Part shown: positions 23,198 to 48,585 of the stretch, in pieces | Layout: each line of letters opens with the position of its first letter | Position numbering within the stretch: position 1 is the stretch's first letter | Made by a program: the position numbers and the translations under genes | The notes under the pieces: model-generated | Told to the model about the DNA's origin: nothing | What the model saw: the letters and a program-made list of their open reading frames with translations, nothing else | The model's database searches: none | From: Anaerolineae bacterium | Lineage (GTDB): Bacteria; Chloroflexota; Anaerolineae; Anaerolineales; Villigracilaceae | Length of the DNA stretch: 64,000 bases | Direction of reading: 5' to 3' | NCBI GenBank assembly: GCA_021324435.1 | Contig: JAJPIZ010000041.1 | Span: 1 to 64,000 of the forward strand

Positions 23198-23636
23198 TTT
23201 GCCAATTTCAGACACACAACCCCTGCGGAAGCCTGCCATTCCAAAAGATGCAACTGTTCTGGTGGTGGAAGACAACGTCTCCAACTTCGTTCTTATTGCC
23301 CGCATGTTGGGCTACCTGGGGATCCATTGCGAATGGAAAACTTCGGGGTACGAGGTTGTTGAATATGCAGACACCCTCCCGCGTCTCGACTTGATCCTGA
23401 TGGATATTCGTCTTCCTTATGAAGACGGATATGGCGCGCAGAAGAAAATCCGCGCGGCAGATCGTTTTCGATCCGTGCCCATCGTGGCAGTCACCGCGGA
23501 GGCCAGCCTCGAACAAATGAACAAGGCCAGGGAATCGGGATTCGATGGTTTCCTTGGCAAACCGCTCGATCCAGATCGCTTCCCCGAACAGATCCGCAGA
23601 ATCTTGAACGGCGAGCAAGTTTGGGAGTTTGCATAA
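23190..23636 (+). CDS. Single-domain response regulator
   Basis: A 148-aa receiver with about 25 extra N-terminal residues. The acidic pair is in VVEDNVSN, the phospho-acceptor is Asp72 in LMDIRLPYEDG, and the Lys is in LGKPLD. There is no DNA-binding or enzymatic output. It is a paralogue of the preceding receiver and translationally coupled to it by an 8-nt overlap. Two stand-alone receivers side by side suggest a phosphorelay intermediate and a phosphate sink, or two different targets. Confidence 0.93.
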   Translation: MANLPISDTQPLRKPAIPKDATVLVVEDNVSNFVLIARMLGYLGIHCEWKTSGYEVVEYADTLPRLDLILMDIRLPYEDGYGAQKKIRAADRFRSVPIVAVTAEASLEQMNKARESGFDGFLGKPLDPDRFPEQIRRILNGEQVWEFA

Positions 23637-23643
23637 ATTATAT

Positions 23644-29126: not shown

Positions 29127-30507
29127 TAAAAGCACTTCTATTACTCCGCGCGCCGATCAGACCCAAACTGCTCCCTCTTCGCAAGCCACGAGATATGCAA
29201 CCATAGGTGTTGCTTTCGGGCTGTTATTTCCCCTCATAGCCACATTGCTTGAACTCGTGCGGGATCAACTGCCGTTTAATCTTGTAAACATCGTCGCAGA
29301 GCAACGGAGCGAGTTCCTATTATGGATCATTGATACCGCCCCCCTGTTCCTGGGCATCTTCGCGTGGTTGGCCGGCTGGCGACAAGACGCGCTCCTAAAA
29401 ATAAACGAGGCGTTGAAGGCACGCGAAAAAGAGATCGCATCCATCAACCTGGACCTTGAGCAACGCGTGGCGGAACGTATGCAAGCTCTGGAAGAGAGAA
29501 ATTCTCAAATGCGCGCGTCGGTCTTCTTTGCGCGGGAAATTGCCGAAATCCAGGATATTCCAACGCTTATCGCCGAAAGCGTCAAACTAATTACACAGCA
29601 ATTCAAACACTATCACGCCGCCATCTTTTTACTCGACGATCAGAGGAAATACGCGCTTATTCAGGCGGCATCGTCAGATGCAGGCAAAAAATTGGTCGAG
29701 CGCGGCTATCGTGTGCAAGTGGGTGACCAAAGCGTAGTAGGACGGGTGGCCGAACAAGGCAAACTCTACAATTTCACTGGCTCGCTCTTCTCTGGGGTTA
29801 GAGACCCCGAAATGCCGCGTACACGTTCGCAGATTGCCCTGCCTCTGTTTGTGCGCGGAAAAGTAATCGGCGTGCTGGATGTCCACTCGGAACAACTACA
29901 AGCCTTCAGTCAGAATGAGGCGGAAGTTCTTCAATTGCTGGCAGACCAAATTGCAATCTCCATTGCAAACGCGCGCCTCCTGAGCGAGTCCCAGACAATT
30001 GCTAATCAACTTAAAACGATTACTGCTGAACAAACCCGCAATGTTTGGCAAGCGCGTTTGAAGTCACGAGGCCTCGCCTATCAGTTCACGCCCGCCGGCA
30101 TCAAATCTATCCCGGCAGGAGCCCGCCCAAAAGATAAGGATGAGCTGAGCGTTCCGGTAATTTTACGCGGATTGGAAATCGGCAGTATCGGATTGAAACG
30201 AAAAGATGGGACCCGTTGGGCCGAGGCAGACCGGGAACTTGCAGAGAAGGTTGCTAATCAGGTGGCATTGGCCCTTGAAAACAGCCGCTTATTGGATGAA
30301 ACACGCGAGCGGGCACTTCAAGAGCAGGCAGTCGGCGAGATTTCGGCGCGCTTCAGCCGCTCGCTGGATGTAGATGCGTTACTGCAAACTGCTGCGCGCG
30401 AGCTGGGCACTCTGCCTGAGGTGGCCGAAGTCGCCGTATTTGTCGGCACGGATAACAATAAAGACAATAAGACAATGGACGGACAAGTCCGAGAGAAACT
30501 GCGATGA
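29119..30507 (+). CDS. Short membrane receptor with GAF domains, no output domain
   Basis: A 462-aa protein, the smallest of the six receptors. Two membrane helices (about 30-50 and 66-90) enclose only a short loop. They are followed by a coiled coil (EKEIASINLDLEQRVAERMQ), a full GAF at about 134-290 (KHYHAAIFLLDDQ, MPRTRSQIALPL), a reduced GAF-like region at 300-393, and the same truncated GAF beginning at 394-445 (VGEISARFSRSLDVDALL). There is no enzymatic output. It overlaps the preceding gene by 8 nt and the next by 4 nt. Confidence 0.85.
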   Translation: MIDKSTSITPRADQTQTAPSSQATRYATIGVAFGLLFPLIATLLELVRDQLPFNLVNIVAEQRSEFLLWIIDTAPLFLGIFAWLAGWRQDALLKINEALKAREKEIASINLDLEQRVAERMQALEERNSQMRASVFFAREIAEIQDIPTLIAESVKLITQQFKHYHAAIFLLDDQRKYALIQAASSDAGKKLVERGYRVQVGDQSVVGRVAEQGKLYNFTGSLFSGVRDPEMPRTRSQIALPLFVRGKVIGVLDVHSEQLQAFSQNEAEVLQLLADQIAISIANARLLSESQTIANQLKTITAEQTRNVWQARLKSRGLAYQFTPAGIKSIPAGARPKDKDELSVPVILRGLEIGSIGLKRKDGTRWAEADRELAEKVANQVALALENSRLLDETRERALQEQAVGEISARFSRSLDVDALLQTAARELGTLPEVAEVAVFVGTDNNKDNKTMDGQVREKLR

Positions 30508-32888
30508 ACTCTATAGACTTCAGAAAAAGACTCGCCTCATTTGGTTCGCTGATCAAGAAACTGAACAGCAAACTGAGTCTGCGCGCCAAATTAATCATTT
30601 CGGTGGTTGGCGTCTCAGTCGTTTTCCTTGCCATATTGGCTTATTACAATTATCAAAACACTCGCAAAGAACTGACCGATGGCCTCAGCGACAGTCTCCG
30701 CAACGTTTCTCAAGTTCAGGGCGCGGCGATAGGAAATCTTCTCGTGCGGCAGATCAACTTGTTGCAATCACTTGGCAGTAGCAAGACAATTCAGGATATG
30801 GCAACCGCGTGCAACGAGACGCATTGTGGAGATCCACAGGTGCAGACGGATCTGGCCACCCTGGAGGCGGAATGGCAGGAAGCAAACGCCGCACACACCG
30901 ACAACGATCCGCTTGTGCAATCGGTTATCAACAATTCAGCCGCTGTTGAAATCAACAGTTTTCGCGAAAATTTCCCGGATAACCTGGAAGTGATTGCCAC
31001 GAATCAATACGGCCTCGTTTTGGCCGCTTCCAATCGAACGACGCATTACTCTTACTTGAATGAAACCTGGTGGCGCAAAGCCTATGACAATGGACGCGGC
31101 AACATCTATATCGGTGAGCCGGAATTGATTCCGAACATCAATCAATATGCTTTTGTGATTGCTGTGCCGCTTCGCTCCCCAGGAACTCGGCAAGTTATCG
31201 GCGTTCTGCGAACGGCTGTGCGTCTTTTGCCGGCTCGCGATCTTCTCGCCTCGGCCCAGATCGGCCAAACCGGTGCGACTGCATTGGTCTTCCGTGCAGG
31301 TAAAGTTCTCAACGACCGAGGCGTTTTGGAACAGTGGCCTTCATCCAACATTCTGCAACTTAGCGATACGCCGATGACAGAAGTTATGCAGATGCCACTA
31401 GGCGAGGACAATCAGCAACGTATTGTCAGCCAGGCCCGCGTTGAATCCTCTGATCCCGCTCTGGGAAATTTCATCTTTACGTTGCAATGGCGTGTGGTAG
31501 TGAGCATTGATCCTGCCGAAGCGCTGGCGCCAGTCAACCAAGCCGCCCTGAACAACCTGACAATCAGCCTCGGTATTCTGTTAATCTCAGCCTTGCTGGC
31601 GCTTGCATTGACTCAATATTTGACCGGGCCAATCCTCCGCCTGACTGCCGTGGCCGAACGCGTGCGTTCCGGCGACCTGAGCGCCCGCGCCAGAGTGGAA
31701 AGCGAAGATGAAATCGGCGTCCTTGCGCAAACCTTCAACCAGACAACCTCACAATTAAGCGACCATATTAATACATTGGAACAACGCGTGGCAGATCGTA
31801 CTCAGGACCTTCAGCGACAAACCCTGCGTCTGCGTGTGGCTTCTGAAGTTGCCCGCGACGCCGCGGCGTCGCCGAACCTCGATGAGCTTCTCTCCCGCTC
31901 CAGCCTGCTGATCCGCGATCGCTTCAACTTCTACCATACCGGCATCTTCCTGCTTGATGAGAAAAAAGAGTATGCCGTCTTGCGCGCCTCGCCGACCGAA
32001 GCCGGCCGCGAGATGATGGCTAACAACCATCGGCTGAAAGTTGGCGAACAGGGCATCGTCGGACGCGTGGCCGCGACAGGAGAGCCGCGCATCGCACTCG
32101 ACGTTGGAGCGGATGCCGTTTTCTTCAACAATCCCATGCTCCCGCGCACTCGCTCAGAAATGGCGCTTCCTCTCAAGACGGCAGAAGGCGTCATCGGCGT
32201 GCTGGACGTGCAAAGCGATGAACCCGAAGCATTCACGCAAGATGATATTGCAATCATCCAGACCATGGCCGATCAACTGGCAACGGCCATTGAAAGACTT
32301 CGCTTGTTCCATCGCGTAGAAAGCAACTTAAGAGAGATGGAAAGGACCTACAGCGAATTTACGAACCGATCCTGGACTGCTTTCACGCGCGGCGGTACTC
32401 AGAACTTGGGTTACAAATTCGACAACATCCGATTGGAATCAATACAGCAAGTTCCAAATGAAGCAAAAGAGGCGATCAAAACAGGAAGTATTGTCGTAAA
32501 GCAAAAGTCCGGGAAAGAAGCGACGGAAACAGGGCAGGTCGCGGCGATTCCCATCCGCCTGCGCGGACAGGCCATCGGTGCCATTAATGTCCGCTTCCAA
32601 AGCCCGGAGGTATCCGATAAAACAATCGCCATGATCGAACAAGCCGCGGATCGTCTGGCCACAGCTCTTGAGAACGCCCGCCTGCTCGAAGAAACCAGAC
32701 AACGCGCTCAAGCCGACACGTTGGTGAGCGAACTCGCAGGACGGCTACGATCCACGCTTGACCTGGAGACTGTTCTTAAAACAGCCGCACAAGAACTGCA
32801 GAAAGCTTTTAACTTGAAAGAGGCCGAAGTGCGTTTGGGCCTGCCAAACGCGCATGAGCCCGAAAAGAAGAACGGCAACAGACAATAG
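30504..32888 (+). CDS. Cache-type membrane receptor with HAMP and GAF domains, no output domain
   Basis: A 794-aa protein. TM1 is at about 28-48. A large extracytoplasmic double-Cache-like region (about 52-345) includes NQYGLVLAAS and WWRKAYDNGRGN, typical of small-ligand sensors. TM2 is at 352-373 and HAMP at 373-425 (EDEIGVLAQTFNQ). A full GAF lies at 446-600 (FNFYHTGIFLLDE, MLPRTRSEMALPL), a reduced GAF-like region at 610-728, and a truncated GAF start at 733-780. There is no kinase domain. It overlaps the preceding gene by 4 nt; the following gene starts 49 nt later at its best-supported codon. Confidence 0.87.
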   Translation: MNSIDFRKRLASFGSLIKKLNSKLSLRAKLIISVVGVSVVFLAILAYYNYQNTRKELTDGLSDSLRNVSQVQGAAIGNLLVRQINLLQSLGSSKTIQDMATACNETHCGDPQVQTDLATLEAEWQEANAAHTDNDPLVQSVINNSAAVEINSFRENFPDNLEVIATNQYGLVLAASNRTTHYSYLNETWWRKAYDNGRGNIYIGEPELIPNINQYAFVIAVPLRSPGTRQVIGVLRTAVRLLPARDLLASAQIGQTGATALVFRAGKVLNDRGVLEQWPSSNILQLSDTPMTEVMQMPLGEDNQQRIVSQARVESSDPALGNFIFTLQWRVVVSIDPAEALAPVNQAALNNLTISLGILLISALLALALTQYLTGPILRLTAVAERVRSGDLSARARVESEDEIGVLAQTFNQTTSQLSDHINTLEQRVADRTQDLQRQTLRLRVASEVARDAAASPNLDELLSRSSLLIRDRFNFYHTGIFLLDEKKEYAVLRASPTEAGREMMANNHRLKVGEQGIVGRVAATGEPRIALDVGADAVFFNNPMLPRTRSEMALPLKTAEGVIGVLDVQSDEPEAFTQDDIAIIQTMADQLATAIERLRLFHRVESNLREMERTYSEFTNRSWTAFTRGGTQNLGYKFDNIRLESIQQVPNEAKEAIKTGSIVVKQKSGKEATETGQVAAIPIRLRGQAIGAINVRFQSPEVSDKTIAMIEQAADRLATALENARLLEETRQRAQADTLVSELAGRLRSTLDLETVLKTAAQELQKAFNLKEAEVRLGLPNAHEPEKKNGNRQ

Positions 32889-32937
32889 CAATAAGTCTAC
32901 GTCTGAAACAATGTCCCGAGAGAACAGGGTCCGTCCT

Positions 32938-35616
32938 ATGACTACCAGCAGATCACTTTCAACTATCCCTTCTCAGCGAGAGCGAAATGCAAAAATTATT
33001 GCCGCTTGGGGTGCGGGAATTTCCGCTCTTACTGCCGGTTTCTATGATTATGTAGCCATGCAGAGCGGCGCATGGCAGGTATTCGCGGTCAGCATTGACG
33101 TTTGGCTCTTAGCGGTATGCATGCTGATTAGCTTTTTCCTCATACGCCAGGGACGTATTCGAGCAGGCATATGGCTTATATTAATTTCAGCATACATCAG
33201 TTTCGCTGTGCCTCCACTCCTGCTTTCAGGATTAGGTTTAATTCTTGGAACCAGCCTTGCCATCCTGATCACCATCGTTGCCAGTATTTGTTTGGAGGGG
33301 CAGGAGGCCGAACGCGCGATATTCCTTGGGGCAGTATTCTCAGCACTTACCATCTTTATTGATTTATTCGTTCCAGAGGGCCGCCTGGCCGCGCCGGCCA
33401 TAATGCAACTGGGGCTTACAACATTCCTGGTTATTGCCGCGTCTATATTTGGCATTGTTTTCGTCCGCCAGTTCCAGCAGTTCAGAGTGGCGGCTCGCCT
33501 CTCTGCGCTGATTCTGATGATCTCGCTTCCCGTTGTTGCGGCCATAGCAATTGTAGTCACATCCCGCGCGGGGGCAATCATTGAAGAACAAGCCAATCAA
33601 AGCCTGAGAGTACACGATCAAATCGTAAATACCACCTTGAACACATGGCTTGACCTACATGGCCGCGCCTTGACAGAACTTGCCAGTCTTCCTGACATTA
33701 CAAGCATGGACCCGCAGCTACAACGGCCTGCCTTGGTCGCAATGGCAAAGGCATATCCAAACTTATTCCTGGTTCAGACCACAGACCTTAACGGCATCAA
33801 TATTGCACGCAATGACGGCGCGGCGCCAAAAGATTATCATGATCGGAACTGGTTTCTTGGCGCAAAGTCAGGAGCGCCCATCACTCTAGAGGCGTTAATC
33901 AGTCGAACCAACGGTAAACCGGCTCTTAATATGTCAACGCCTATCAGAGATGCCTCAGGGAGGATCATTGGCGTTGCGTCCATTGTCTCTACATTAGATG
34001 ATGTTGCCAATGAAGTGATATCAGCTACAGGCGAAGGCAAAGAAATTCTTATTTTTGTTGTAGACAATAGAAATAATGTGATTGCGCATCCTGATCCCGC
34101 ATTAACCGAAGGGGATAACCTGCATGATTTCAGTAATTATCCTCCTGTAGCAGCAATGCGGAAGGGAACCACGGGCATCATGGACTTCACTGATGAGAAC
34201 GGTACTCGGTGGCGCGCTTACATTTACTTAATGGACAATGGCTGGGGCGTTATTTCCCAGGAGCCTATAAATCTACTATTAGCCCCTTTGTATCTGTTTC
34301 AGAAGATTGCCATAGTGATTGGAATGGTCGGCCTCGCTATCTTGTTAAGCATAGCATGGCTCACGATTCGCCGTACGCTGAAGCCCATTGAAGGGTTAAC
34401 CGGGACCGTGGAAGCCGTTACCGCGGGCGATCTCACACGCATGGCAGAAGTTACAAGCGGCGACGAAATTGGCATATTGGGCGAGGCATTCAACAAAATG
34501 ACCGCCCAGATTCGAGAGTTAATTGGCGGGCTGGAGCAACGCGTCTCCGAACGCACGGCAGAAATCGAACGGCGCGCATCGCTGTTGCGCACAGCGGCTG
34601 AAGTTGCCAAAACATCAGCATCCATTCAGGACCTCGATGCGCTCCTCAACCAGACCGCGCGACTGTTGAGTCTGCGATTCGGTTTCTATCACACAGGCAT
34701 CTTTCTGCTGGATGAGGCTGGCAAGTTCGCCGTGCTACGCGCCACTAACAGTGAAGGCGGCCAAAGGATGCTGGTTCGAGGACACAAACTCGAAGTGGGA
34801 CGTGTGGGCATCGTGGGTAACGTTGCTCAAAGTGGACAGGCGCGCATCGCTCTCGACGTTGGAGCGGATGCTGTTTACTTCGATAACCCGGATTTGCCGA
34901 ATACACACTCCGAAATGGCTCTTCCATTAAGCGCTAAGGGACAAATCCTTGGCGTCCTCGATATACAGTCCACCGAGCCTCTTGCATTTACCCAGGAAGA
35001 CATTGAGACTCTGCAAGTGGTCGCCGACCAGTTGGCAATTTCAATAGAGAATGCGCGTTTGCTGGCAGAGAGTCAGGCCGCTGTAGAAGCGACCAGGCGT
35101 GCGTTTGGTGAAATCGCGAGCATGGCATGGAAAGAGAGATTGGGGGCCGATGGGGCAATTGGCTTCCGAACCACCAGCGAAAAGAGCGGGGTATCTATGA
35201 TAGATGCAGGCAACTGGTCACCTGAAGCGCTCAAAACCGCCATGGAGGCAAAAACAACAGCCTCCAGCGATGGAAGCACAATCTATGTACCCATCCTTGT
35301 GCGCGGACAATCCATTGGCGTATTGAAACTGGCAAAACCAGAGCGCGCCCAGTGGACCGAAATCGAGCAACAAGCCGCCGAGGTGATTGCCGATCAATTG
35401 AGCGGCGCGCTCGAGAGCGCCCGCCTCTTCGATAGCGCTCAACGACGCGCCGCCAAGGAACAAGCGCTGGGCGAGATTACATCCAAAATCAGCGCCTCTA
35501 CGAACATACGAAACGTCCTCCAAACCGCAGTGGAAGAATTGGGACGCGCCATTCCCGGCTCAGAAGTTATTATCCAGTTTCAAGGCGGCAGGGAAGTTGA
35601 AAGGTCGGAGAATTAA
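32938..35616 (+). CDS. Polytopic and Cache-type membrane receptor with HAMP and GAF, no output domain
   Basis: About 892 aa. The first 180 residues hold about six membrane helices. A seventh (about 188-208) leads into an extracytoplasmic Cache-like domain (211-444; DYHDRNWFLGAKSG, TPIRDASGRIIGVASI), then TM at 455-474, HAMP (GDEIGILGEAFNKM), GAF at 551-707, a reduced GAF-like region at 717-834 and the truncated GAF start at 840-885. This combines the polytopic front of the 27540 protein with the Cache-HAMP-GAF plan of its neighbours. I chose the ATG at 32938 because AGGG lies eight bases upstream. In-frame ATGs at 32911 and 32854 (the last overlapping the previous gene by 35 nt) lack a ribosome-binding site. 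Confidence 0.83.
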   Translation: MTTSRSLSTIPSQRERNAKIIAAWGAGISALTAGFYDYVAMQSGAWQVFAVSIDVWLLAVCMLISFFLIRQGRIRAGIWLILISAYISFAVPPLLLSGLGLILGTSLAILITIVASICLEGQEAERAIFLGAVFSALTIFIDLFVPEGRLAAPAIMQLGLTTFLVIAASIFGIVFVRQFQQFRVAARLSALILMISLPVVAAIAIVVTSRAGAIIEEQANQSLRVHDQIVNTTLNTWLDLHGRALTELASLPDITSMDPQLQRPALVAMAKAYPNLFLVQTTDLNGINIARNDGAAPKDYHDRNWFLGAKSGAPITLEALISRTNGKPALNMSTPIRDASGRIIGVASIVSTLDDVANEVISATGEGKEILIFVVDNRNNVIAHPDPALTEGDNLHDFSNYPPVAAMRKGTTGIMDFTDENGTRWRAYIYLMDNGWGVISQEPINLLLAPLYLFQKIAIVIGMVGLAILLSIAWLTIRRTLKPIEGLTGTVEAVTAGDLTRMAEVTSGDEIGILGEAFNKMTAQIRELIGGLEQRVSERTAEIERRASLLRTAAEVAKTSASIQDLDALLNQTARLLSLRFGFYHTGIFLLDEAGKFAVLRATNSEGGQRMLVRGHKLEVGRVGIVGNVAQSGQARIALDVGADAVYFDNPDLPNTHSEMALPLSAKGQILGVLDIQSTEPLAFTQEDIETLQVVADQLAISIENARLLAESQAAVEATRRAFGEIASMAWKERLGADGAIGFRTTSEKSGVSMIDAGNWSPEALKTAMEAKTTASSDGSTIYVPILVRGQSIGVLKLAKPERAQWTEIEQQAAEVIADQLSGALESARLFDSAQRRAAKEQALGEITSKISASTNIRNVLQTAVEELGRAIPGSEVIIQFQGGREVERSEN

Positions 35617-35621
35617 TTAAC

Positions 35622-38153
35622 ATGAAAAACATTTCTCCCCAGAATAAAACCTCCTTCGGGGCTTTCAGTTTTCGCACAAGGCTGATCGTAGGCAGTGTGT
35701 TCATTGCCTTTATTGCCATTGCAGCTATGGGATATTACATTTACTATCGCGCCCAGGCAGAGAGTGCGTATCTGACCAATCAACTCGATCAAAGTGTACA
35801 ACAACACGCAGAAGATGAACTGTCCGCTGTCAGCTCGGAACAGGCAAACGCGCTCAACAATTTCTTTGCATCTGCAAAGAAAGATATCGTCAATCTCGGC
35901 TCAACGACCGAGAAGTTTTTCGCGCAGGAGACCATTCTGGGAACCGGAACGTATTGGGACGCGACTCAGCAGTTATATCGTCTGCCGAACGGAAGTTGGG
36001 ACAATCAGAGAAGCGATGTTGGTTCAGTCTTCATCCCCGCCAGCGTTGAACTGAGCGATCCGCTGAATCAAGAACTAAATACGCTCAAGCAACTGGATTT
36101 TGTCGCACCGACCTTCCTCAAATCCAATCCGGATGCGATTGCAGTGTACTTCGGTGGCGGTCCGGGTGAGACCATTTATTATCCAAACATTGACCTGGCG
36201 TCTTTAGTGCCCCCGGATTTTGATATTACCAAACGTCCCTGGTTTGTAAAAGCCGCGCCTGCACAGAATCCTTCACACGCGCCCGTTTGGTCAGACCCGT
36301 ATCTGGACGCCGCTCAAAACGGCCTCGTAATTACCGGAAGTGTTCCTGTCTTTGACTCGAGAGGAAACTTCCGCGGCGTTGCCGCGATGGACTTCCAACT
36401 GAACCGAATTACAGCCCTGGTCTCCAACATCAAAGTTGGTGAAACCGGCTATGCCTTCCTTGTAGATAAAGATAAACGGCTGATTGCCATGCCGCCAGCC
36501 GCCTACGCAGATTTGGGGATCGCGCCCGACGCGTTTCCCCTTGGACAGCCTCTTGATCAGACCAAGGCGCCGCCTCAAATTCCCGCCTATTTCTGGACCA
36601 TTCTAACAAGCATTAGCACCGGGCAAAGCGGCCTGGAAACAATCTCTATAAACGGCATAGAGCGGTTTGTTGTCTATCGCCCTGTCCCGGAAATCGGTTA
36701 CGGCCTTGCCATCATTGTTCCGTCTCATGAATTGCTCACAGGCTCCATCGCTGCAAAAGAACAAATTGCCCAATCTTCCAAGAACACATTGGTACTGAGC
36801 GGTCTGCTGGTAGCCGCAATATTACTTGTTTCCCTCATCGCCGCGCTGACGCTGGGCAATCGGCTGGCGCGCCCACTTGGCGAGTTGACGCGCACCGCTG
36901 AAGAAATCGCCAGCGGCAATCTTGAAGCGAAAGCAGAAGTACACGGACAAGATGAGATCGGCGTATTGGCCGCGGCCTTCAATGTCATGACATCGCGTTT
37001 GAGAAACACCCTTCTGGGACTCGAACAACGGGTCGCGGAACGCACGTCCGAACTACAAATCGCCAACCAGAAGAACGAACGTCGCGCCCGGCAATTTGAA
37101 GCCATCGCACAGGTGGGACGCGCCATCAACTCGATTCGCGGAACAGAAGAATTACTGCCAAAGATTGCGTCCGTGATCAGTGAGCAATTTGGCTATTATC
37201 ACGTCGGCATCTTCTTGAACGACGAAAACGATTTCTTGACCTATCTCACAGCCGCCAACAGCGAAGGTGGGCAGAAAATGCTGGCGCGCGGCCACAACCT
37301 CCGCGTTGGCGAACAAGGCATTGTAGGTAACGTCGCAGGCACCGGTCAGCCGCGCATCGCCAGCAGTGTAGGCCAAGATGCGGCGTACTTCAACAACCCG
37401 GACTTGCCCGAGACGAAATCAGAAATGGCTTTGCCTCTACGCTCTGCCGGAAAAGTAGTCGGTGTGCTGGATGTTCAGAGCACGGAAGAAAATGCTTTCT
37501 CAGACGAGGATGTCAGTGTGCTGAACACGCTAGCCGATCAGGTTACTCTCGCGATTGATAACGCGAGGCTGTATGAATCCACGCGCCGATCTCTTGAAGA
37601 AGCAGAAGCGTTATATCGTCAATATCTGCGTCAGGCGTGGAGCCGACTGCCGCGCGAACAGCAACTGGCTGGATACCGGTACACGCCGCGCGGTGCGGCG
37701 CCACTGGACGCGCCCGTCAGTTTGGATAAAGACCAGGAGCAAACTCATACCCGCCTCACGGTCCCGATTAAGTTGCGTGGAGAGCTGATTGGCAATTTGG
37801 TCATTCAATCACAGGATAATCGGAACTGGAGTCAAGATCAGATTGACCTCGTCGAGGCAGTCGCGGAGCGAGTGGCACTATCGGCAGAGAATGCGCGCCT
37901 CTTCGACGAAACCAGCCGACGCGCGGAGCGCGAACGAATCGTTACTGAAATTACTTCGAAGATTCGAAGCACCAACGATCCTGATGAAATGATTAGAACT
38001 GCACTGGACGAACTGAGAAACGCTTTGGGCGCAACGCAAGTCCAGTTAATCCCACAAGCGATCAATGTTTCGCAGGACAACCAACACGAAATTTATTCTT
38101 CAACCCCGCAGGACACCAAAGACGGGCAACGCGGAAATGGAGCGAAAAAATGA
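35622..38153 (+). CDS. Cache-type membrane receptor with HAMP and GAF domains, no output domain
   Basis: An 843-aa protein. TM1 is at about 20-40. A long extracytoplasmic dCache-like sensor (45-385) includes KRPWFVKAAPAQNP, NGLVITGSVPVFDSRG and GYAFLVDKDKRLIA, features of amino-acid or carboxylate sensors. TM2 is at 388-410, then HAMP (HGQDEIGVLAAAFN), a full GAF at 492-650 (LPETKSEMALPLRS), a reduced GAF-like region at 657-763 and a truncated GAF start at 765-815 with a polar tail. There is no output domain. Its stop overlaps the ATPase start by 4 nt, so the last receptor is coupled to the ParA gene. Confidence 0.87.
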   Translation: MKNISPQNKTSFGAFSFRTRLIVGSVFIAFIAIAAMGYYIYYRAQAESAYLTNQLDQSVQQHAEDELSAVSSEQANALNNFFASAKKDIVNLGSTTEKFFAQETILGTGTYWDATQQLYRLPNGSWDNQRSDVGSVFIPASVELSDPLNQELNTLKQLDFVAPTFLKSNPDAIAVYFGGGPGETIYYPNIDLASLVPPDFDITKRPWFVKAAPAQNPSHAPVWSDPYLDAAQNGLVITGSVPVFDSRGNFRGVAAMDFQLNRITALVSNIKVGETGYAFLVDKDKRLIAMPPAAYADLGIAPDAFPLGQPLDQTKAPPQIPAYFWTILTSISTGQSGLETISINGIERFVVYRPVPEIGYGLAIIVPSHELLTGSIAAKEQIAQSSKNTLVLSGLLVAAILLVSLIAALTLGNRLARPLGELTRTAEEIASGNLEAKAEVHGQDEIGVLAAAFNVMTSRLRNTLLGLEQRVAERTSELQIANQKNERRARQFEAIAQVGRAINSIRGTEELLPKIASVISEQFGYYHVGIFLNDENDFLTYLTAANSEGGQKMLARGHNLRVGEQGIVGNVAGTGQPRIASSVGQDAAYFNNPDLPETKSEMALPLRSAGKVVGVLDVQSTEENAFSDEDVSVLNTLADQVTLAIDNARLYESTRRSLEEAEALYRQYLRQAWSRLPREQQLAGYRYTPRGAAPLDAPVSLDKDQEQTHTRLTVPIKLRGELIGNLVIQSQDNRNWSQDQIDLVEAVAERVALSAENARLFDETSRRAERERIVTEITSKIRSTNDPDEMIRTALDELRNALGATQVQLIPQAINVSQDNQHEIYSSTPQDTKDGQRGNGAKK

Positions 38154-38935
38154 GTTACATAGTCGCGATATCGAACGAAAAGGGCGGCGTCGCAAAGACG
38201 ACCACCACACTTTCGCTGGGCGCCGCGCTGGCAGATGCTGGAAATAAAGTTTTGCTGATGGACCTCGATCCGCAGGCGAACCTGACGCTTGCACTTGGCA
38301 TTGAACCTGGCTCTGCGGCAGTCACCTCCAGCCACATCTTGATCGAATCCGCGCCATTGATGAGCGCGCGGCTTGCGAGTGACGTTCCAAATCTCGATTT
38401 GATCCCCTCACACTCCAGCATTGAAAGCGCAGAGCAATTTCTGCCGGTACGAACTCATTACACTGCCGGGCTTAAACGAGCCATTGAAAATGCGGGGCCG
38501 CTCCTCTATGATTATATATTGCTTGATTGTCCCCCATTCCTCGGGGCGATCACTACAAATGCGTTAAGCGCCGCCGACCTTCTGCTTATCCCAACCCAGG
38601 CCGAGTATTTTTCAGCCTATGCCCTGCGCAACATGATGGGCATCATTCGACGGGTGCGACTTGAAAGCAACCCGGCGCTCGGCTATCGAATTCTGATCAC
38701 CTTGCTTGATCGCCGCAATCGCACACACAGAAACATTCAGGAACAACTTCAAAACACGTTTGGCGAAGGCCTTTTCAAAACCGTGATCGAAGTGGACACA
38801 AAACTGCGCGAAAGCCCCATCGCTGGTCTGCCCATCACACGTTACAAACCCGGCGCTCGCGGTTCGCAACAATATCGCGAACTGGCCCAGGAGCTTATGG
38901 AATATGTCAAAGAAAAAGATCAACAAACGGCTTGA
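38150..38935 (+). CDS. ParA/Soj-type ATPase
   Basis: A 261-aa P-loop ATPase of the ParA/MinD class. The deviant Walker A is EKGGVAKTTTT, with the signature first Lys. LLMDLDPQAN follows, and Walker B is YILLDCPPFLG. These proteins dimerise on ATP binding, usually bind DNA or membrane non-specifically, and position cargo. No parB or parS-like partner is adjacent. It sits between the last receptor (4-nt overlap) and the hybrid kinase (32-nt overlap). This suggests cargo positioning of the signalling complex, as ParC and PpfA do for chemoreceptor arrays. That role is inference; a chromosome-segregation role is less likely in this setting. Confidence 0.92.
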   Translation: MSYIVAISNEKGGVAKTTTTLSLGAALADAGNKVLLMDLDPQANLTLALGIEPGSAAVTSSHILIESAPLMSARLASDVPNLDLIPSHSSIESAEQFLPVRTHYTAGLKRAIENAGPLLYDYILLDCPPFLGAITTNALSAADLLLIPTQAEYFSAYALRNMMGIIRRVRLESNPALGYRILITLLDRRNRTHRNIQEQLQNTFGEGLFKTVIEVDTKLRESPIAGLPITRYKPGARGSQQYRELAQELMEYVKEKDQQTA

Positions 38936-41900
38936 GCATATCTTCGACGACGTCAGTAAGGAAGATGTCAAACCGCAAAAACGGCCTTTGAAAAAGACCG
39001 GGATGTTGTCGCCTTCCAAACTCCCGCCTCCGCTGCGACCGAAAGCCGCTCCCGCCAAACCCGCCGCCCCAAAGCCGGAAGAATCTCCCGTTGCGCCGTC
39101 CGCGGTTACAAGTACAACCGGCGCCATGTCCCTCGCCTTTCGCAAGGACGAGAAAAATTGGGCGACATTACGCGTCGTAGATGATTCCGCGCCGCGCACG
39201 TGGGCCATGGAAGAGCAGATGCTCGTCAAACAAGTTGCCGACCAGTTGTCACTGGCTCTCGAAAATGCCCGGCTGTTTCAGGAAACGCAAAAGGCTTTCA
39301 GTGAAACCGAAAGCCTCTATCGCGCCAATGCCGAACTGAATGCAAGCCAGACATTCGATGACATCTTCGCCATCTTGAGAAAGTACACTATTCTCGATAA
39401 AGCCCATATTGGACGCTTACTACAATTCGATCGGCCGTGGAACGATCAACAAACTCCCGATATGATGACCTTGATCGCGGACTGGCCCACCGATCCCTCC
39501 AATCCAAGCCACCAGGCGGCGAAGCAATCTGTCAAAGATTATCCCGCAGTCAAGTTCCTGAGTCCAACAGAACCAACTATCGTGGAAGATACCGCCACCG
39601 ACGAGCGCCTCGACAAGAACACGCGCATACTTCTGGTCGAGCGTTTCAAGGCGAAAAGCGCATTATATGCGCCGCTCAGCATCGGCAGGGACTGGGTTGG
39701 TTTCCTCGCCGCGTATTATCCAGTACAAGTTTCCTTCACGAAAGAGAATCTTCAACGGCTGATGTCGCTGATCGGGCAGGCCGCTATCGCCATTGAAAAG
39801 AACCGGTTATTCCAGGAAGCGCAACGCCGCGCGCGCGAAATGGCCGCACTGGCGGAGGTGGGCCAAGATGTGTCCGCTTCTCTTGACCTTCAGACAGTGT
39901 TGGAACGAATCGCCACACATGCCAAAGACTTGCTCGGCTCCGTCAGCAGTGCTGTGTACATTCCCGAACCAAATGGGCAAGTCTTTCGAGCAATTGCGGT
40001 CGTTGGCGAAGAGGCCGATGCCATTAAGAAAGATGCGATCAACCTTGGCGAAGGCCTCCTCGGTGGCATTGCTCACAGCAAAAAAGCAGAGATTATCAAT
40101 GACGCACTTCATGATGACCGCGCCGTTCCTGTGGCCGGAACAGAAATCAAGCCTTATGAGCATTTGATGGGCGCGCCTCTCATGGCCGGCGACAGAGTCA
40201 ACGGCCTGATGGCCGTGTGGCGCACCGGACGAGGAACGGAATATCAACCCAGTGAATTGGATCTGCTTGTGGGGCTTTCGCGGCAAGCCTCCATTGCCAT
40301 AGAAAACGCGCGTCTATTCGAGGAAACACGCGAAAGTCAGAAAGCCGTGGCGCGTTCTGAATCTGAATTACGCGCCCTGTTCGCGGCCATGAATGATGTG
40401 ATCATCGTCTTGGATAAAGAAGGCCGTTACGAGCGCATCGCTCCAACCAATCCTTCCCGCTTGTTCCGACCACCCGAGGACATGCTTGGCAGGAAAACCA
40501 GCGAGGTTTTGCCGCCCGAAACCAGCAAGCCCATCATGGCCGCTATTGAGCAATCCATTAAAACAGGCGAAACGGTCAAACTGGAATATTCGCTGGATAT
40601 CAACCAAAAAATCTACTGGTTCGACGCAAGCGTTTCGAAACTTAACGAAAATCAGGTATTCCTCGTTGCCCGCGATATCACCGAGCGCAAGTACAACGAA
40701 TTAATTCAAAATGCCATTACCCGCATCTCGGAAGGGGCATTAGCCTCGCCCGACATGGTCACTCTTCTGCGCACGATCCACGAAAGCGTGAGCACATTGA
40801 TGCCGGCTCGCAATTTTTACGTGGCGCTTTACGACGAGCGCAGTGATCTGATGACCTTCCCATACTATCAGGATGAACACGATGAACCCTGGCCTCCGCA
40901 AAAACCCGGGCGTGGTTTAACAAGTTATGTATTGAGGACCGGAAAGCCTTTGCTCGTCACGCCCGAAGTATATGATGAACTGGAACGCACCGGCGAAGTG
41001 AAGGGCGGCGGCACGCGCGGGACCGATTGGCTGGGGGTCCCGTTAAGAAGCGGCGCTCAACGCCTTGGCGTGATGGTCGTTCAAACATACGATCCCCATA
41101 TTCGACTCACGGAAAACGATCGGGATACTTTAAATCTGGTCGCGGCTCAGGCCTCCGTGGCAATCGAGCGGAAACGCGCCCAGGAGGATCTTTCCAAATT
41201 CAAACTCGGCATTGACCATTCAGACGACGCGGTCTTCATCACCGATCCCGATGGTACGATCATCTACTCTAACCCCGGTTTTGAAAAAATTTATGGCTTT
41301 AGTCAACAGGAAGCGATTGGAAAAACACCACGCATCATTAAATCGGGTCTCCTTTCGCCAGATGACTATAAACAATTCTGGGCCACTTTGTTATCCAAAA
41401 ATACCGTATCGGGCGAGATTACCAACAGAACAAAAGATGGACGCCTTGTCCCAATTGCAGGTACAAACAGCCCAATCCTGGATGAAGCAGGCCGCATCAT
41501 AGGTTTTCTGGCCGTTCATCACGACATGACCGAAACGAAGCGCACTGAAGAGGCTCTCAAACGTCGGAATGAATATCTCGCCGCGTCTGCAGAGATCGGT
41601 CGTCTGGTGACTTCCACTCTCGACCTGAACACCATCTTTAGCCGCACCGTCAATCTGGTCAGTGAAAGATTCGGTTATTACCATGCCGCCATCTTCGTTG
41701 TGGAAGAGACCGGATTCAATGCCGTGTTGCGCGAGGCCACAGGCGCGGCCGGCGCGGAAATGAAGCAGCGGGAACACAGCTTGCCCGTCAACGATAAATC
41801 CATTGTGGGAAAGGTTGCCCTCAATGGCGAGCCGGTGGTGGTGAACAACACTGCCCTCGATTCAATTCACAAACCAAATCCCTTACTTCCTGAAACGCGC

Positions 41901-43574
41901 GCGGAGGCGGCCATCCCATTGCGCGTCGGAAGCCGCATCATTGGCGCGCTGGATATCCAATCCCAAAATGTTGGCGCGTTCACGCAGGACGACCTGGCAG
42001 TGCTTCAAATCCTCGCCGATCAGGTTGCAATCGCTATTGACAACGCCCGATCATACGAACTCTCCCAACAGGCTGTGATGGAAATGCGTGAGCTGGACCG
42101 CCTCAAGAGTCAATTCCTGGCAAACATGAGCCATGAATTGCGCACGCCGCTGAACTCGATCATCGGCTTCTCGCGCGTGATTCTGAAAGGCATTGACGGT
42201 CCAGTTACTGATTTGCAACAGCAAGACCTCACGGCTATTTATAACTCCGGCCAACATCTGCTCGGTCTGATTAACAACGTACTCGACCTGGCAAAGATGG
42301 AGGCCGGCAAGATGGAGCTGGCTTTCGATGATGTGAACATGACAGACTTGATCAGTAACATCATGTCCACCGCCAGCGGCTTGGTGAAAGATAAACCCAT
42401 CAAGCTTGTCCGCAACATTCATGCCGATCTACCCATGGTCCGGGCGGATGCGCTCCGCGTACGTCAGGTTCTGCTAAACCTGCTCTCCAACGCCGCGAAA
42501 TTCACAGACGAGGGCGAGATCACTGTGGACGCGTATGTTCAAACCAGCGGAACGGGTCGTAAGGAAATTATTGTCAGCGTGACCGATACCGGTCCCGGCA
42601 TCGCCGCGGAAGACCAAAGCAAACTCTTCCAACCGTTCTCGCAAGTGGACGATTCCCCCACACGCAAGACCGGCGGGTCAGGTCTCGGTCTTTCGATCAG
42701 CCAGCAATTGATCCACATGCACGGCGGGAAGATCGGCGTACACAGCATTGTCGGGAAAGGAAGTACCTTCTATTTCACTCTGCCCATTGCCAGCAGTAAA
42801 GACGAAGCGCACGGTCAGAGAGGTGACGCAAAAATCGTTCTCGCCGTGGACGATGATCCACAGGTCATCGCGCTTTACGAGCGATACCTTCAGCCGCGCG
42901 GATATCAAGTAGTTGCCCTTACGGATCCCAAGCGCGCGCGGCAAAGCGCGCGCGAGCTCAAGCCGTACGCGATCACGCTTGACATCATGATGCCGGGATA
43001 CGACGGCTGGGCCGTCCTCAATGACTTAAAAGCAGATGGCGAAACCCGCGACATTCCGGTCGTCGTCTGCTCCATCATCGAGGAACAGGAACGCGGCTTC
43101 AGCCTCGGCGCGGCTGATTATCTGCTGAAACCGATTCTGGAGGAAGACCTGGTCAACGCGTTGAATCGACTCAACGGAGATGGAAGCATTGGCGAGGTCC
43201 TCGTCATAGACGATGATCCGAATGCCCTGCGGCTCATGGAAAAAATATTCAAAGCGCACGGCAAATACAAGGTTACCCTGGCCGAAGGCGGCAAACGCGG
43301 CTGGGATATGATCTCGTCCCACACGCCTCAAGCTGTGATTCTCGATTTGTTCATGCCCGAATTAGATGGATTCACCATCCTCGAGAAGATGCGTGAAAAC
43401 GCCAAGATGCGCGACATTCCCGTGGTCGTGGTCAGCGGCGGCGATTTGGACGCCGAACAGAAAAAACAAATGGCCGAGTTTGGTCAGCGCTTGGTCAGTA
43501 AAGGATCGCTCAACGAGAACGATCTATTAAACACAATCGAGCGCGCCCTCAAACGCGTCGAACCGAGGAAATAA
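38904..43574 (+). CDS. Soluble hybrid histidine kinase with GAF/PAS repeats and two receivers
   Basis: A 1556-aa protein without membrane helices. A Lys/Pro/Ala-rich N-terminus (1-72) is followed by only the C-terminal part of a GAF (75-130; MSLAFRKDEKNWATL to ALENARLFQETQ). Next are GAF at 151-302, GAF at 316-474, PAS at 486-596, GAF at 600-759, PAS at 768-879 and GAF at 890-1052. HisKA has His1077 in MSHELRTPLNS. HATPase has SNAAKF, DTGPGI and GGSGLGLS. Two receivers end the protein, with Asp1360 and Asp1481. The start at 38904 has AGGAG ten bases upstream and lies inside the ATPase gene. It is the only kinase in the cluster, so it is the likely hub for all six receptors. Confidence 0.92.
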   Translation: MSKKKINKRLEHIFDDVSKEDVKPQKRPLKKTGMLSPSKLPPPLRPKAAPAKPAAPKPEESPVAPSAVTSTTGAMSLAFRKDEKNWATLRVVDDSAPRTWAMEEQMLVKQVADQLSLALENARLFQETQKAFSETESLYRANAELNASQTFDDIFAILRKYTILDKAHIGRLLQFDRPWNDQQTPDMMTLIADWPTDPSNPSHQAAKQSVKDYPAVKFLSPTEPTIVEDTATDERLDKNTRILLVERFKAKSALYAPLSIGRDWVGFLAAYYPVQVSFTKENLQRLMSLIGQAAIAIEKNRLFQEAQRRAREMAALAEVGQDVSASLDLQTVLERIATHAKDLLGSVSSAVYIPEPNGQVFRAIAVVGEEADAIKKDAINLGEGLLGGIAHSKKAEIINDALHDDRAVPVAGTEIKPYEHLMGAPLMAGDRVNGLMAVWRTGRGTEYQPSELDLLVGLSRQASIAIENARLFEETRESQKAVARSESELRALFAAMNDVIIVLDKEGRYERIAPTNPSRLFRPPEDMLGRKTSEVLPPETSKPIMAAIEQSIKTGETVKLEYSLDINQKIYWFDASVSKLNENQVFLVARDITERKYNELIQNAITRISEGALASPDMVTLLRTIHESVSTLMPARNFYVALYDERSDLMTFPYYQDEHDEPWPPQKPGRGLTSYVLRTGKPLLVTPEVYDELERTGEVKGGGTRGTDWLGVPLRSGAQRLGVMVVQTYDPHIRLTENDRDTLNLVAAQASVAIERKRAQEDLSKFKLGIDHSDDAVFITDPDGTIIYSNPGFEKIYGFSQQEAIGKTPRIIKSGLLSPDDYKQFWATLLSKNTVSGEITNRTKDGRLVPIAGTNSPILDEAGRIIGFLAVHHDMTETKRTEEALKRRNEYLAASAEIGRLVTSTLDLNTIFSRTVNLVSERFGYYHAAIFVVEETGFNAVLREATGAAGAEMKQREHSLPVNDKSIVGKVALNGEPVVVNNTALDSIHKPNPLLPETRAEAAIPLRVGSRIIGALDIQSQNVGAFTQDDLAVLQILADQVAIAIDNARSYELSQQAVMEMRELDRLKSQFLANMSHELRTPLNSIIGFSRVILKGIDGPVTDLQQQDLTAIYNSGQHLLGLINNVLDLAKMEAGKMELAFDDVNMTDLISNIMSTASGLVKDKPIKLVRNIHADLPMVRADALRVRQVLLNLLSNAAKFTDEGEITVDAYVQTSGTGRKEIIVSVTDTGPGIAAEDQSKLFQPFSQVDDSPTRKTGGSGLGLSISQQLIHMHGGKIGVHSIVGKGSTFYFTLPIASSKDEAHGQRGDAKIVLAVDDDPQVIALYERYLQPRGYQVVALTDPKRARQSARELKPYAITLDIMMPGYDGWAVLNDLKADGETRDIPVVVCSIIEEQERGFSLGAADYLLKPILEEDLVNALNRLNGDGSIGEVLVIDDDPNALRLMEKIFKAHGKYKVTLAEGGKRGWDMISSHTPQAVILDLFMPELDGFTILEKMRENAKMRDIPVVVVSGGDLDAEQKKQMAEFGQRLVSKGSLNENDLLNTIERALKRVEPRK

Positions 43575-43582
43575 AAACAAGA

Positions 43583-45250
43583 ATGGCATTCACCATCAAA
43601 TGTCTTGATTGCGGACATACTGCACCCTATTTTCCAACATCAACCAACTGCCCACGATGCAACAGCCAGTGGCGCGAGGCGGAATATGACTACGAGACAT
43701 TCGCCAAGACTCTGCCTCTTCAACTCCCGAATCGTCCTTTTGATTTGTGGCGGTATCGCGAACTTCTGCCGATTCGCAACCCAAACCCCACATTGACTCT
43801 TGGCGAGGGCGGGACGCCGCTGGTTCAAGCCGTCAATCTAGGGATGATGCTTGGCACGCCGAATCTGTTTATAAAAGATGAACGACAAGGGCCAACAGGT
43901 TCTTTCAAAGACAGGCAGGCCGCCGTCACCATCGCGGCGCTCAAGGAAGCAGGCATCACAGAAATGGTCGCGGCGTCAACAGGCAACGTGGCGATTGCGT
44001 ATTCAGCGTATGCCTCGCGGGCCGGGATAAAACTCTGGGCTTTTGTGACCAGCCTCGTTCCAGCGGTTAAGATGCGGGAGATCGCTTTGTATGGCAGTCA
44101 GGTGGTAAAAGTCACAGGTTCATACGATCAGGTCAAGCAGGTTGCGGCGGAGTTTGCGCGCCAGCGCAGTCTCTATCAAGATATGGGGGCGCGGACGATT
44201 ACATCCATTGAGGCCATGAAGACCATCGCGTATGAAATCGCGGAACAGCTGACGGCTTTCCAGCCCATTACGACCAACAACGGAAAGCCGAGCGTGTGGC
44301 GCACGCCCGACTGGTATGTGCAAGCCATCAGCGGCGGGATGGGTCCGCTTGGAATCTATAAAGGATTCCGCGAGTTGAAGCAAATGGGACTGATTGATCG
44401 CATTCCATCCATCGCAGTCGTTCAAGCCGATGGTTGCGCGCCGATGGTGAATAGTTTCAAGCAAGGACTCGAAACGGCTATTCCGGTCACCACTCCAAAG
44501 ACTCATATCGAAACCCTTGCCACCGGCGACCCGGGACGTTCTTATACATTATTGCGCGAGCGCGTCCTCGAGACAAAAGGCGCCTTTGAAAGCGTTTCCG
44601 ATGAAGAAGCCTTCCGCGCCATGCACGTACTGGCAAAGATGGAAGGTATTTCTGCCGAACCCGCCGCGGCGGTTGCTTTTGCCGGTCTGTTCAAACTGAT
44701 TCGTGCGGGCGTCATCAAACCGACCGATACGATCGTTGTCAACTGTACGGGGCATACCATGCCCGCCGAGGAATTTGTCCTCGGCACAAACTGGACGCGC
44801 GATGTTGAATTCCCGACAAAACAAACGGCCACGCCGGAGGAAGGCCTGCTGTCTGCACTTAACCAGGTCGCTCCCAATCGCTTCCCCCGCGTAGCCATTG
44901 TGGACGATACTGCCGAGGCGCGCAGGTTGATCCGCAGAATTCTGCAATCCCAAGGTGACTTCAAGATCTTTGAAGCGACCAACGGGCAAGAAGGACTTGA
45001 ACTGATCCAGCGCGAACTTCCTGACCTGATCATTTTGGATTTGATGATGCCCGAAATGGACGGCTTTGCTGTGATGGACGCCCTGAAAGCGAATCAGGAA
45101 ACAGCGAATATCCCGGTGATCGTGGCAACAGCAAAAGAACTGACAGCCGATGAAAAAGCCCGCCTCGGCTCGCAGATTCAATCCCTGATGCAAAAAGGCG
45201 ATTTTCTCAACGATGAATTTCTCGATGAAGTGAAGGCATTGATCAAGTAA
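43583..45250 (+). CDS. Threonine-synthase-like PLP enzyme fused to a receiver domain
   Basis: A 555-aa fusion. Residues 1-415 follow threonine synthase: a zinc-ribbon-like start (CLDC and CPRC), the PLP lysine Lys109 in GSFKDRQ, the phosphate-binding STGNVAIAYSAYASRAG, SGGMGPLGIYKGF and NCTGHTMP. The normal reaction is O-phosphohomoserine to threonine plus phosphate. After a linker, residues 425-555 are a complete receiver: IVDDTAE, Asp486 in ILDLMMPEMDG, and a late Lys-containing stretch. The frame is continuous with no sign of a frameshift. It follows the hybrid kinase by 8 nt, so phosphorylation by that kinase may control the enzyme. Whether the PLP part still makes threonine is not known. 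Confidence 0.9.
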   Translation: MAFTIKCLDCGHTAPYFPTSTNCPRCNSQWREAEYDYETFAKTLPLQLPNRPFDLWRYRELLPIRNPNPTLTLGEGGTPLVQAVNLGMMLGTPNLFIKDERQGPTGSFKDRQAAVTIAALKEAGITEMVAASTGNVAIAYSAYASRAGIKLWAFVTSLVPAVKMREIALYGSQVVKVTGSYDQVKQVAAEFARQRSLYQDMGARTITSIEAMKTIAYEIAEQLTAFQPITTNNGKPSVWRTPDWYVQAISGGMGPLGIYKGFRELKQMGLIDRIPSIAVVQADGCAPMVNSFKQGLETAIPVTTPKTHIETLATGDPGRSYTLLRERVLETKGAFESVSDEEAFRAMHVLAKMEGISAEPAAAVAFAGLFKLIRAGVIKPTDTIVVNCTGHTMPAEEFVLGTNWTRDVEFPTKQTATPEEGLLSALNQVAPNRFPRVAIVDDTAEARRLIRRILQSQGDFKIFEATNGQEGLELIQRELPDLIILDLMMPEMDGFAVMDALKANQETANIPVIVATAKELTADEKARLGSQIQSLMQKGDFLNDEFLDEVKALIK

Positions 45251-45283
45251 TATAGGTTGGATGAATCACACTACTGGTTGCTG

Positions 45284-46228
45284 ATGCACAAACGAAATAA
45301 CGGGATTATCGCGGCGCTGAGTTCGGCAGTCTTCCTTGGGCTTTCACCTGTGTTTGGGAAACTGGCAATCAACGCTGGGTTCTCGCCGCTAGCGGTCGTC
45401 GCCCTGAGGACCAGCATGGCCGCGGCTCTGGTCTTCCTGATCGTCCTCATCTTTTATCGTCAATTCCTTTATATCTTCCCGGTTGGATTAATCGGTTGCT
45501 TTATCGCCGGCGCAATCAACGGTCTCGGCTCGATTTTGTATTACATGGCTCTGCATCGCTTGAGCGCCAGTGTTGGGCAAATGCTATATTCCCTCTATCC
45601 GTTCTTCGTGGCGATCTGGCTCAGTCTGGATCATCAACCACCCAGTCGTTTGACTCTTTCCCGCATCGCACTCGCGACGCTGGCTGTGCTCCTGCTCACC
45701 AGCCTCCCCTCCCACCCGGCAGATCCCACCGGCGTATGGATGATGCTCGGTTCAGCTGCGCTTTACGCTTTGCATCTGCCTATCAATCAAAGAGTGCTCT
45801 ACGAGGTCCCGGCGCCGACTGTTACGCTGTACACATTAGTTTCGATGAGCGCCGTCGTGGCGCCTGCCTACTTGCTGTTCGACAGGCAATGGCCAACTTT
45901 GGCTCTTCCCTGGTGGCCGGTCTTTGGCTTGACCTTGGTGACATCGCTCTCACGCCTGGCTTTGTTCCTCGGCGTCAAGCACATCGGTGGAATGCAAACG
46001 GCGTTACTGGGGTTGGGAGAATTGCTGGTCACAATTTTCTTTAGTTATGTTTGGTTGCACGAACAGCTTGCACCCATACAATGGCTGGGCGCAGTCGGCT
46101 TGGCGATCAGCCTCTTATTAGTCAGACTCGAAAAACCGCTATCCATCCCTCACGGCAAAAGCGGATGGCTCTCTTGGATTCGCCCGCCGGATATTCCACG
46201 CGATATTCCGTGGGGACCGCACGAATAA
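45284..46228 (+). CDS. EamA/DMT-family membrane transporter
   Basis: About 314 aa with ten predicted membrane helices in two EamA repeats, typical of drug/metabolite exporters. Visible features are GLSPVFGKLAIN in the first helix, GLGSILYYMALHRLSAS in the first repeat, and the second-repeat end GMQTALLGLGELLVTIFFSYVWLHE. The substrate is unknown; placement just after a threonine-synthase-like gene makes amino-acid export a reasonable guess only. The start is uncertain: ATG at 45284 begins directly before the first helix, while a TTG at 45257 would add nine residues. It is the last gene of the rightward cluster and faces a bidirectional terminator. Confidence 0.87.
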   Translation: MHKRNNGIIAALSSAVFLGLSPVFGKLAINAGFSPLAVVALRTSMAAALVFLIVLIFYRQFLYIFPVGLIGCFIAGAINGLGSILYYMALHRLSASVGQMLYSLYPFFVAIWLSLDHQPPSRLTLSRIALATLAVLLLTSLPSHPADPTGVWMMLGSAALYALHLPINQRVLYEVPAPTVTLYTLVSMSAVVAPAYLLFDRQWPTLALPWWPVFGLTLVTSLSRLALFLGVKHIGGMQTALLGLGELLVTIFFSYVWLHEQLAPIQWLGAVGLAISLLLVRLEKPLSIPHGKSGWLSWIRPPDIPRDIPWGPHE

Positions 46229-48583: not shown

Positions 48584-48585
48584 AA

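Follow-up and report, generated by a model that had tools for sequence, protein, structure and literature searches.

A threonine-synthase-like enzyme joined to a receiver domain beside a hybrid histidine kinase in an Anaerolineae genome

Two-component systems act mostly on transcription, second messengers or motors. The LqsA/CqsA-type autoinducer synthases, which depend on pyridoxal 5'-phosphate (PLP), are encoded with a sensor kinase and a response regulator. They belong to another PLP fold type, have no fused receiver and carry out different chemistry. A passage of PMC5847659 describes bacterial receivers joined to standard metabolic enzymes, says that the arrangement puts the activity under environmental control and gives a narrow distribution for the archaeal receiver-enzyme fusions. 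Here a 64,000 nucleotide (nt) stretch of an Anaerolineae bacterium of the family Villigracilaceae (assembly GCA_021324435.1, contig JAJPIZ010000041.1) was analyzed and is termed the window. It contains one gene, termed the fusion, whose product combines a threonine-synthase-like PLP enzyme domain with a receiver and whose neighbor is a hybrid histidine kinase.

The fusion resembles the enzymatic-output response regulators treated in that part of PMC5847659 as it likewise consists of a receiver and a metabolic enzyme; in this case the enzyme is a PALP domain, the receiver is C-terminal and the distribution is class-wide. The features of such a regulator found here were a full receiver, an attached enzyme domain that keeps its catalytic residues and a nearby histidine kinase (68 of 78 distinct loci). 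As with LqsA/CqsA, a PLP enzyme is encoded alongside a kinase and a response regulator. Fold-type II, the SFK lysine motif and the N-terminal CxxC pairs (as in L002, a protein of the same genome) are shared with threonine synthase (PRK08197/NF006050, TIGR00260). Unlike threonine synthase the fusion has its own KDER, FKDRQ, TGxPGxxY and GHT motifs, a fused receiver and a kinase neighbor, and it has no NP(Y/F)R motif. Cysteate synthase (TIGR03844; CapA2, 9k3c) has the same fold but the fusion scored far below the cut-off of that model (112.7 compared to 324.9 bits). While enzymatic-output response regulators are already known, no paper on a threonine synthase or PALP domain fused to a receiver was found in the literature searched, the output-domain reviews of Galperin (2006, 2010) being outside the scope of that search.

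The fusion gene and its kinase

The following features make up the fusion and its upstream neighbor.

38904..43574, + strand: hybrid histidine kinase of 1556 amino acids (aa) with GAF, PAS, HisKA, HATPase and two receivers (Pfam), the probable phosphodonor
43583..45250, + strand: fusion gene, 555 aa, a single open frame from ATG to TAA with N terminus, PALP, linker and receiver
43796..44752, + strand: PALP (fold-type II PLP enzyme) domain, aa 72-390, Pfam PF00291, E 2.4e-64
43901..43915, + strand: codons of S107-F108-K109-D110-R111, the PLP-lysine motif, invariant in 126/126 fused homologues
44798..44854, + strand: linker, aa 406-424, predicted local distance difference test (pLDDT) score <50 in the model
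44891..45193, + strand: receiver, aa 437-537, Pfam PF00072 (Response_reg), E 4.7e-20

A first-pass annotation of the window had described an apparently intact PLP enzyme running into a receiver, 8 nt after a hybrid kinase, and both points were confirmed. The fusion begins 8 nt past the stop of the kinase (stop at 43574, start at 43583), and 6 nt separate its end from an EamA gene. Lys109 lies within GSFKDR, STGN is at aa 132-135, SGGMGP at aa 250-255 and the receiver carries Asp486. The key receiver positions are D441, D442, D486, T516 and K538, the last sitting directly past the end of the Pfam match.

Conservation was assessed in 126 distinct fusions drawn from 138 distinct sequences. Ten stand-alone PALPs were excluded, L006, itself part of the query locus, was removed by hand and L052, cut by a contig end, was recognized by elimination as also lying outside the set. 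The loci were best matches and near relatives are hence over-represented. Invariant in all 126 were the enzyme residues K98, R101, S107, F108, K109, D110, R111, Q112, STGN 132-135, S250, G251, G254, P255, T314, G315, P317, G318, Y321 and GHT 390-392, so that the loss of key PLP residues raised in the first-pass annotation was seen in none. The SFK lysine motif and the following S/T-x-GN loop, a threonine synthase feature, were likewise present in 126/126. The acid pair, Asp, Thr/Ser and Lys of a receiver were complete (positions 441/442, 486, 516 and 538). D442, D486, P490, D493, K538 and G539 did not vary; position 441 was Asp in 81 and Glu in 45, and position 516 was Thr in 94 and Ser in 32. 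From these alignments both the PLP site and the receiver site look to be kept by selection. The N terminus bears C7, C10, C23 and C26, all invariant in the 126 fusions, and we infer that these four cysteines may bind metal. Two receivers followed the PALP domain in 5 of 78 fusions (L218, L223, L061, L237 and L221). The AlphaFold2 model of the fusion, built with 67 homologues, had a mean pLDDT of 82.9 and a predicted template modeling score of 0.73. Values were below 50 in the linker, which is probably flexible, and in the last 17 residues (aa 539-555).

Gene neighborhoods were taken from 85 stretches, of which 80 had a fusion frame and 78 were distinct (56 clade A, 21 clade B and one unassigned). 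The clade labels are crude as they reflect identity to two references; L218 was counted as A yet lay outside both groups in the PALP tree. No fusion frame was returned by the gene picker for L200, L211, L220, L224 and L234, which are therefore outside the neighborhood counts. A co-directional upstream gene was present in 73 of the 78 loci, and 68 of those 73 genes carried both HELRTP and GxGLGL and were classed as histidine kinases. The other five were a split kinase frame (L039), a frame with an ATPase motif cut by a contig end (L059) and three non-kinases (L191, L212 and L217). In L063, L218, L228, L231 and L236 the gene picker placed an opposite-strand frame upstream of the fusion. With duplicates kept, a kinase lay just upstream of 71/80 fusion genes compared to 56/880 other genes in the same regions. 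In clade A 50/56 loci had, next to the fusion and no more than 300 nt away, a co-directional upstream gene whose best match was the window kinase (median gap 20 nt). An upstream kinase was found in 18/21 clade-B loci (median gap 2 nt).

The kinases of the two clades were searched for receivers with a custom profile at E 1e-3. Two receivers were found in 37, one in 10 and none in 3 of the 50 clade-A kinases, and none was found in the 18 clade-B kinases. The receiver of the fusion would therefore be a natural partner of the clade-B kinases. In the window, the last receiver of the kinase (43140-43547, + strand) matched the fusion receiver at 77 bits compared to 34 bits for the first receiver. Both the last receiver and the fusion receiver end in K-G, a position at which K-P is usual in receivers. 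A receiver tree with few columns and many weak forks grouped 30 fusion receivers, 5 second receivers and 12 terminal kinase receivers (Shimodaira-Hasegawa-like approximate likelihood ratio test (SH-aLRT) 93), apart from first kinase receivers and from OmpR-type and CheY-type receivers.

The fusion is likely to be a response regulator that has a PLP enzyme as its output domain and is switched by the adjacent kinase, because one chain holds PALP and receiver domains that are both complete, the catalytic residues of the two are kept in 126/126 and a kinase is mostly found just upstream. The neighboring kinase would phosphorylate Asp486, and the phosphorylated receiver would act through the linker on the enzyme domain, altering its activity or its oligomeric state. 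The substrate may be an amino acid from the threonine/homoserine/serine area. In clade A, to which the window belongs, the product or a related compound may be carried by the EamA transporter encoded next to the fusion. The arrangement suggests direct control of a metabolic enzyme by a sensor and not via gene expression. A receiver on an amino-acid-type enzyme that is widely inherited and retained next to a kinase would provide a clean example of metabolic control by phosphotransfer, and a single kinase, a single enzyme and a set of substrates would suffice to test the system.

Enzyme type and distribution

The best NCBIfam match of the fusion was threonine synthase, below the equivalog cut-off. 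Scores were 258.1 bits for PRK08197/NF006050 (cut-off 303) and 159.4 bits for TIGR00260, thrC (cut-off 167.1). The closest solved relatives of the enzyme part were threonine synthases (Foldseek, 6nmx, E 6.9e-26). The enzyme model aligned (VIA) to the threonine synthase structure 2c2b with Z 45.3 and a root-mean-square deviation (rmsd) of 2.3 over 386 residues, and to CapA2 (9k3c), which we take to be a cysteate synthase, with Z 42.0 and an rmsd of 2.3 over 367 residues. In threonine synthases the Arg of the NP(Y/F)R-type motif binds the substrate phosphate. This motif of the solved threonine synthases was present in 0/126 fusions and column 208 was never Arg. Column 209 was Arg or Lys in 48/126, including all 23 of clade B and excluding the window protein. 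The absent Arg was considered as proof of a new substrate, a case that is weakened by this basic residue one position on. The NP(Y/F)R-type motif was present, as PYR, in L002 and L004 of the window's genome. L003 and L005 were also without the motif.

In the PALP tree 67 fusions and three cyanobacterial relatives split from 12 threonine-synthase-like proteins, several of which are very long branches, with a support of 100 and a stem of 1.56 as drawn. Three other proteins of the same genome were above the thrC cut-off (L004, 300.1 bits; L002, 181.5 bits; L003, 176.6 bits). Among the fusion-bearing genomes of the order that occurred in both samples, 50/54 had a thrC match above the cut-off and never at the place of the fusion. 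The remaining four (G164, G231, G182 and G186) had none in the first scan; at a second look G182 passed if two pieces were summed, and G164 and G231 were near-misses (166.7 and 158.1 bits). The fusion is thus unlikely to be the housekeeping threonine synthase, given its scores and the other thrC proteins in the same genomes. The label threonine synthase is only partly supported, and the domain is better called threonine-synthase-like because of the sub-cut-off scores, the separate group, the missing NP(Y/F)R motif and the other thrC proteins per genome. The fusions mark out a coherent set of PLP enzymes that is apparently uncharacterised. According to a passage of PMC12172450, deamination of threonine is a further activity of a cyanobacterial threonine synthase, and side reactions may therefore be possible in this fold.

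The enzyme part of the fusion matched 133/152 genomes of the family at E 1e-60 and, among the matches listed, all frames were at least 495 aa. The whole protein matched 127/251 genomes of the order (E 1e-90), 82/249 of the class (E 1e-70) and 33/301 of the phylum sample (E 1e-70); these samples have genomes in common, and some few of the matches, G459, G485 and G406 among them, are partial. Outside the class the phylum sample contained matches in six genomes of family f90 and one of f79 (G602, 8% contamination). In a scan of named genomes, 25 enzyme-part loci among the matches listed belonged to Anaerolineae or 'Chloroflexi' records, including Ardenticatenaceae and Thermoflexales. When the enzyme alone was searched against 300 phylum genomes, 41 of the matches listed had at least 52% identity, all in frames of at least 551 aa. 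An identity gap followed, the next 10 matches being at 36-40% in frames of 414-483 aa. The receiver therefore stays with this enzyme in that 300-genome sample. Plasmid records gave no match as high as 60% identity. No match was found in 119 genomes of the phylum of a Planctomycetaceae record (L081), a search with no positive control.

Relatives at 48-52% identity were found in 3/117 genomes of the cyanobacterial phylum to which L072 belongs. Two are complete without a receiver (L256:9072-10286 and L257:9310-10506) and the third is cut by a contig end (L255:1-1200). Most KDER-type motifs are kept, and one of the two complete relatives has lost GHT. No kinase or receiver was found in the 19-20 kb fetched around each of these two, nor in the stretch fetched for L255. 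A quick PALP tree nested the receiver-less relatives among the fusions. Grouping the fused members as one clade was not rejected and a better tree was found in this way (approximately unbiased test, p-AU 0.684).

A PALP protein related to L002 was encoded within three genes downstream of the fusion, on the same strand, in 4/19 clade-B loci with room (L058, L231, L233 and L236) and in 0/51 clade-A loci with room. A further 20 stretches comprised six chosen for a nearby thrC match and 14 others, with no fusion frame in L264, L279 and L281. Four of the chosen six had a fusion frame and 4/4 had the downstream PALP (L262, L263, L265 and L280, the last being L231 again). Among the 14 others 13 had a fusion frame and 3/13 the downstream PALP (L266, L270 and L277). 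A threonine synthase behind a clade-B fusion is a minority arrangement, seen in roughly every fourth or fifth locus. Five of the downstream proteins (L231, L236, L058, L233 and L234) scored 565-583 bits against the threonine synthase cut-off of 303 (PRK08197 type). An indirect tie of the fusion to threonine metabolism is plausible because a genuine threonine synthase follows it in some clade-B loci. The link to threonine proposed in the first-pass annotation would hold in this indirect form; a direct one through the fusion itself, which is under the cut-offs and has no NP(Y/F)R motif, is not supported. Its proposal that phosphotransfer controls the enzyme remains the best reading of the intact domains and the adjacent probable kinase. 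A threonine biosynthetic enzyme, as written there, is not supported.

Alternative readings

Several observations weigh against a kinase-switched enzyme of this type. The enzyme scored below the threonine synthase cut-offs and has no NP(Y/F)R motif. The enzyme can occur without a receiver, as the two complete cyanobacterial relatives have none. No kinase with both motifs lay directly upstream in 10/78 loci, some of which reflect a gene-picker effect (L231, where none was found, is the same place as L280, where a kinase was found). The contact between receiver and enzyme in the model was without confidence.

In a wider version of the switch, considered rather unlikely, the locus is a kinase-gated production and export unit: a PLP enzyme with a new type of substrate is phosphorylated by the sensor cluster, and its product leaves the cell through an EamA transporter. 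The transporter is encoded as follows.

45257..46228, + strand: EamA transporter, 6 nt downstream of the fusion, Pfam PF00892, E 6e-25

EamA was the immediate downstream gene in 42/55 clade-A loci and within two genes in 44/55. It was within two genes in 1/21 clade-B loci, and in 16/21 of these a CheY-like gene directly followed the fusion. The EamA product had no NCBIfam match at E 1e-20. Were the export unit real, a stimulus would lead to immediate secretion of an amino-acid-like compound, for nutrient exchange or as a cell-cell signal, with transcription unchanged.

The direction of control could also be reversed, with PALP as a sensor of PLP, an amino acid or a phospho-amino acid that changes (de)phosphorylation of the receiver. 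The fusion would then report a metabolite level to the kinase or be a ligand-gated phosphate sink. The two receivers at the end of most clade-A kinases, the terminal one grouping with the fusion receiver, would fit a common phosphate pool. The fusion bears no DNA-binding output, and the genome has other threonine-synthase-type proteins. However, the PLP lysine and surrounding loops are invariant in 126/126, and the two complete receiver-less cyanobacterial relatives keep most enzyme motifs, with no kinase or receiver found in the 19-20 kb fetched around each. This would make catalysis the core function. A sensor role is accordingly rated as fairly improbable.

That the fusion is an ordinary threonine synthase whose receiver has little effect is very unlikely. 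The fold, the best solved relatives and the best NCBIfam match are all those of threonine synthase, and the basic residue at 209 in 48/126 may still allow phosphate binding there. These points are set against scores under the equivalog cut-offs, a long-stemmed group of its own with a support of 100, the absence of NP(Y/F)R from all 126, another thrC protein in 50/54 fusion-bearing genomes of the order, and the conserved receiver residues and kinase. A receiver serving dimerisation or localisation only, with the two activities uncoupled, would suit the low-confidence linker between the domains but is highly improbable, as invariant D442, D486 and K538 and a kinase kept adjacent argue for phosphorylation. 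A sequencing error joining two genes, also raised in the first-pass annotation, is refuted by recurrence: 126 distinct proteins share this join, and genomes from many families have it, across the family, the order and the class and also in two families of the phylum beyond the class.

Other neighboring genes

The cluster upstream of the kinase comprises the following.

22811..23636, + strand: two stand-alone receiver genes heading the cluster
23629..38153, + strand: six GAF proteins in a row; Pfam gives Cache, HAMP or MASE11 in some of them and a kinase domain in none
38150..38935, + strand: ParA/MinD-type ATPase overlapping the kinase start (Pfam)

GAF-type genes precede the kinase in many homologous loci among the matches listed. 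The ParA/MinD-like ATPase scored 96.5 bits compared to an NCBIfam partition cut-off of 180, and a ParA-type gene was within three genes upstream of the fusion in 33/56 clade-A loci. A second two-component set, an OmpR-type regulator and two kinases, is located at 46281-51168 (- strand). Similar genes adjoin many clade-A fusions among the matches listed. Metabolic neighbors, considered as pointers to the substrate, gave single contexts. The neighbors of the L191 fusion were an ApbC/NifU-type protein, a deformylase, an ARMT1-like protein and a ZIP transporter. In L217 mtnA overlaps the fusion by 4 nt and has upstream of it a ribonucleotide reductase frame that contains intein parts (L217:4333-10139).
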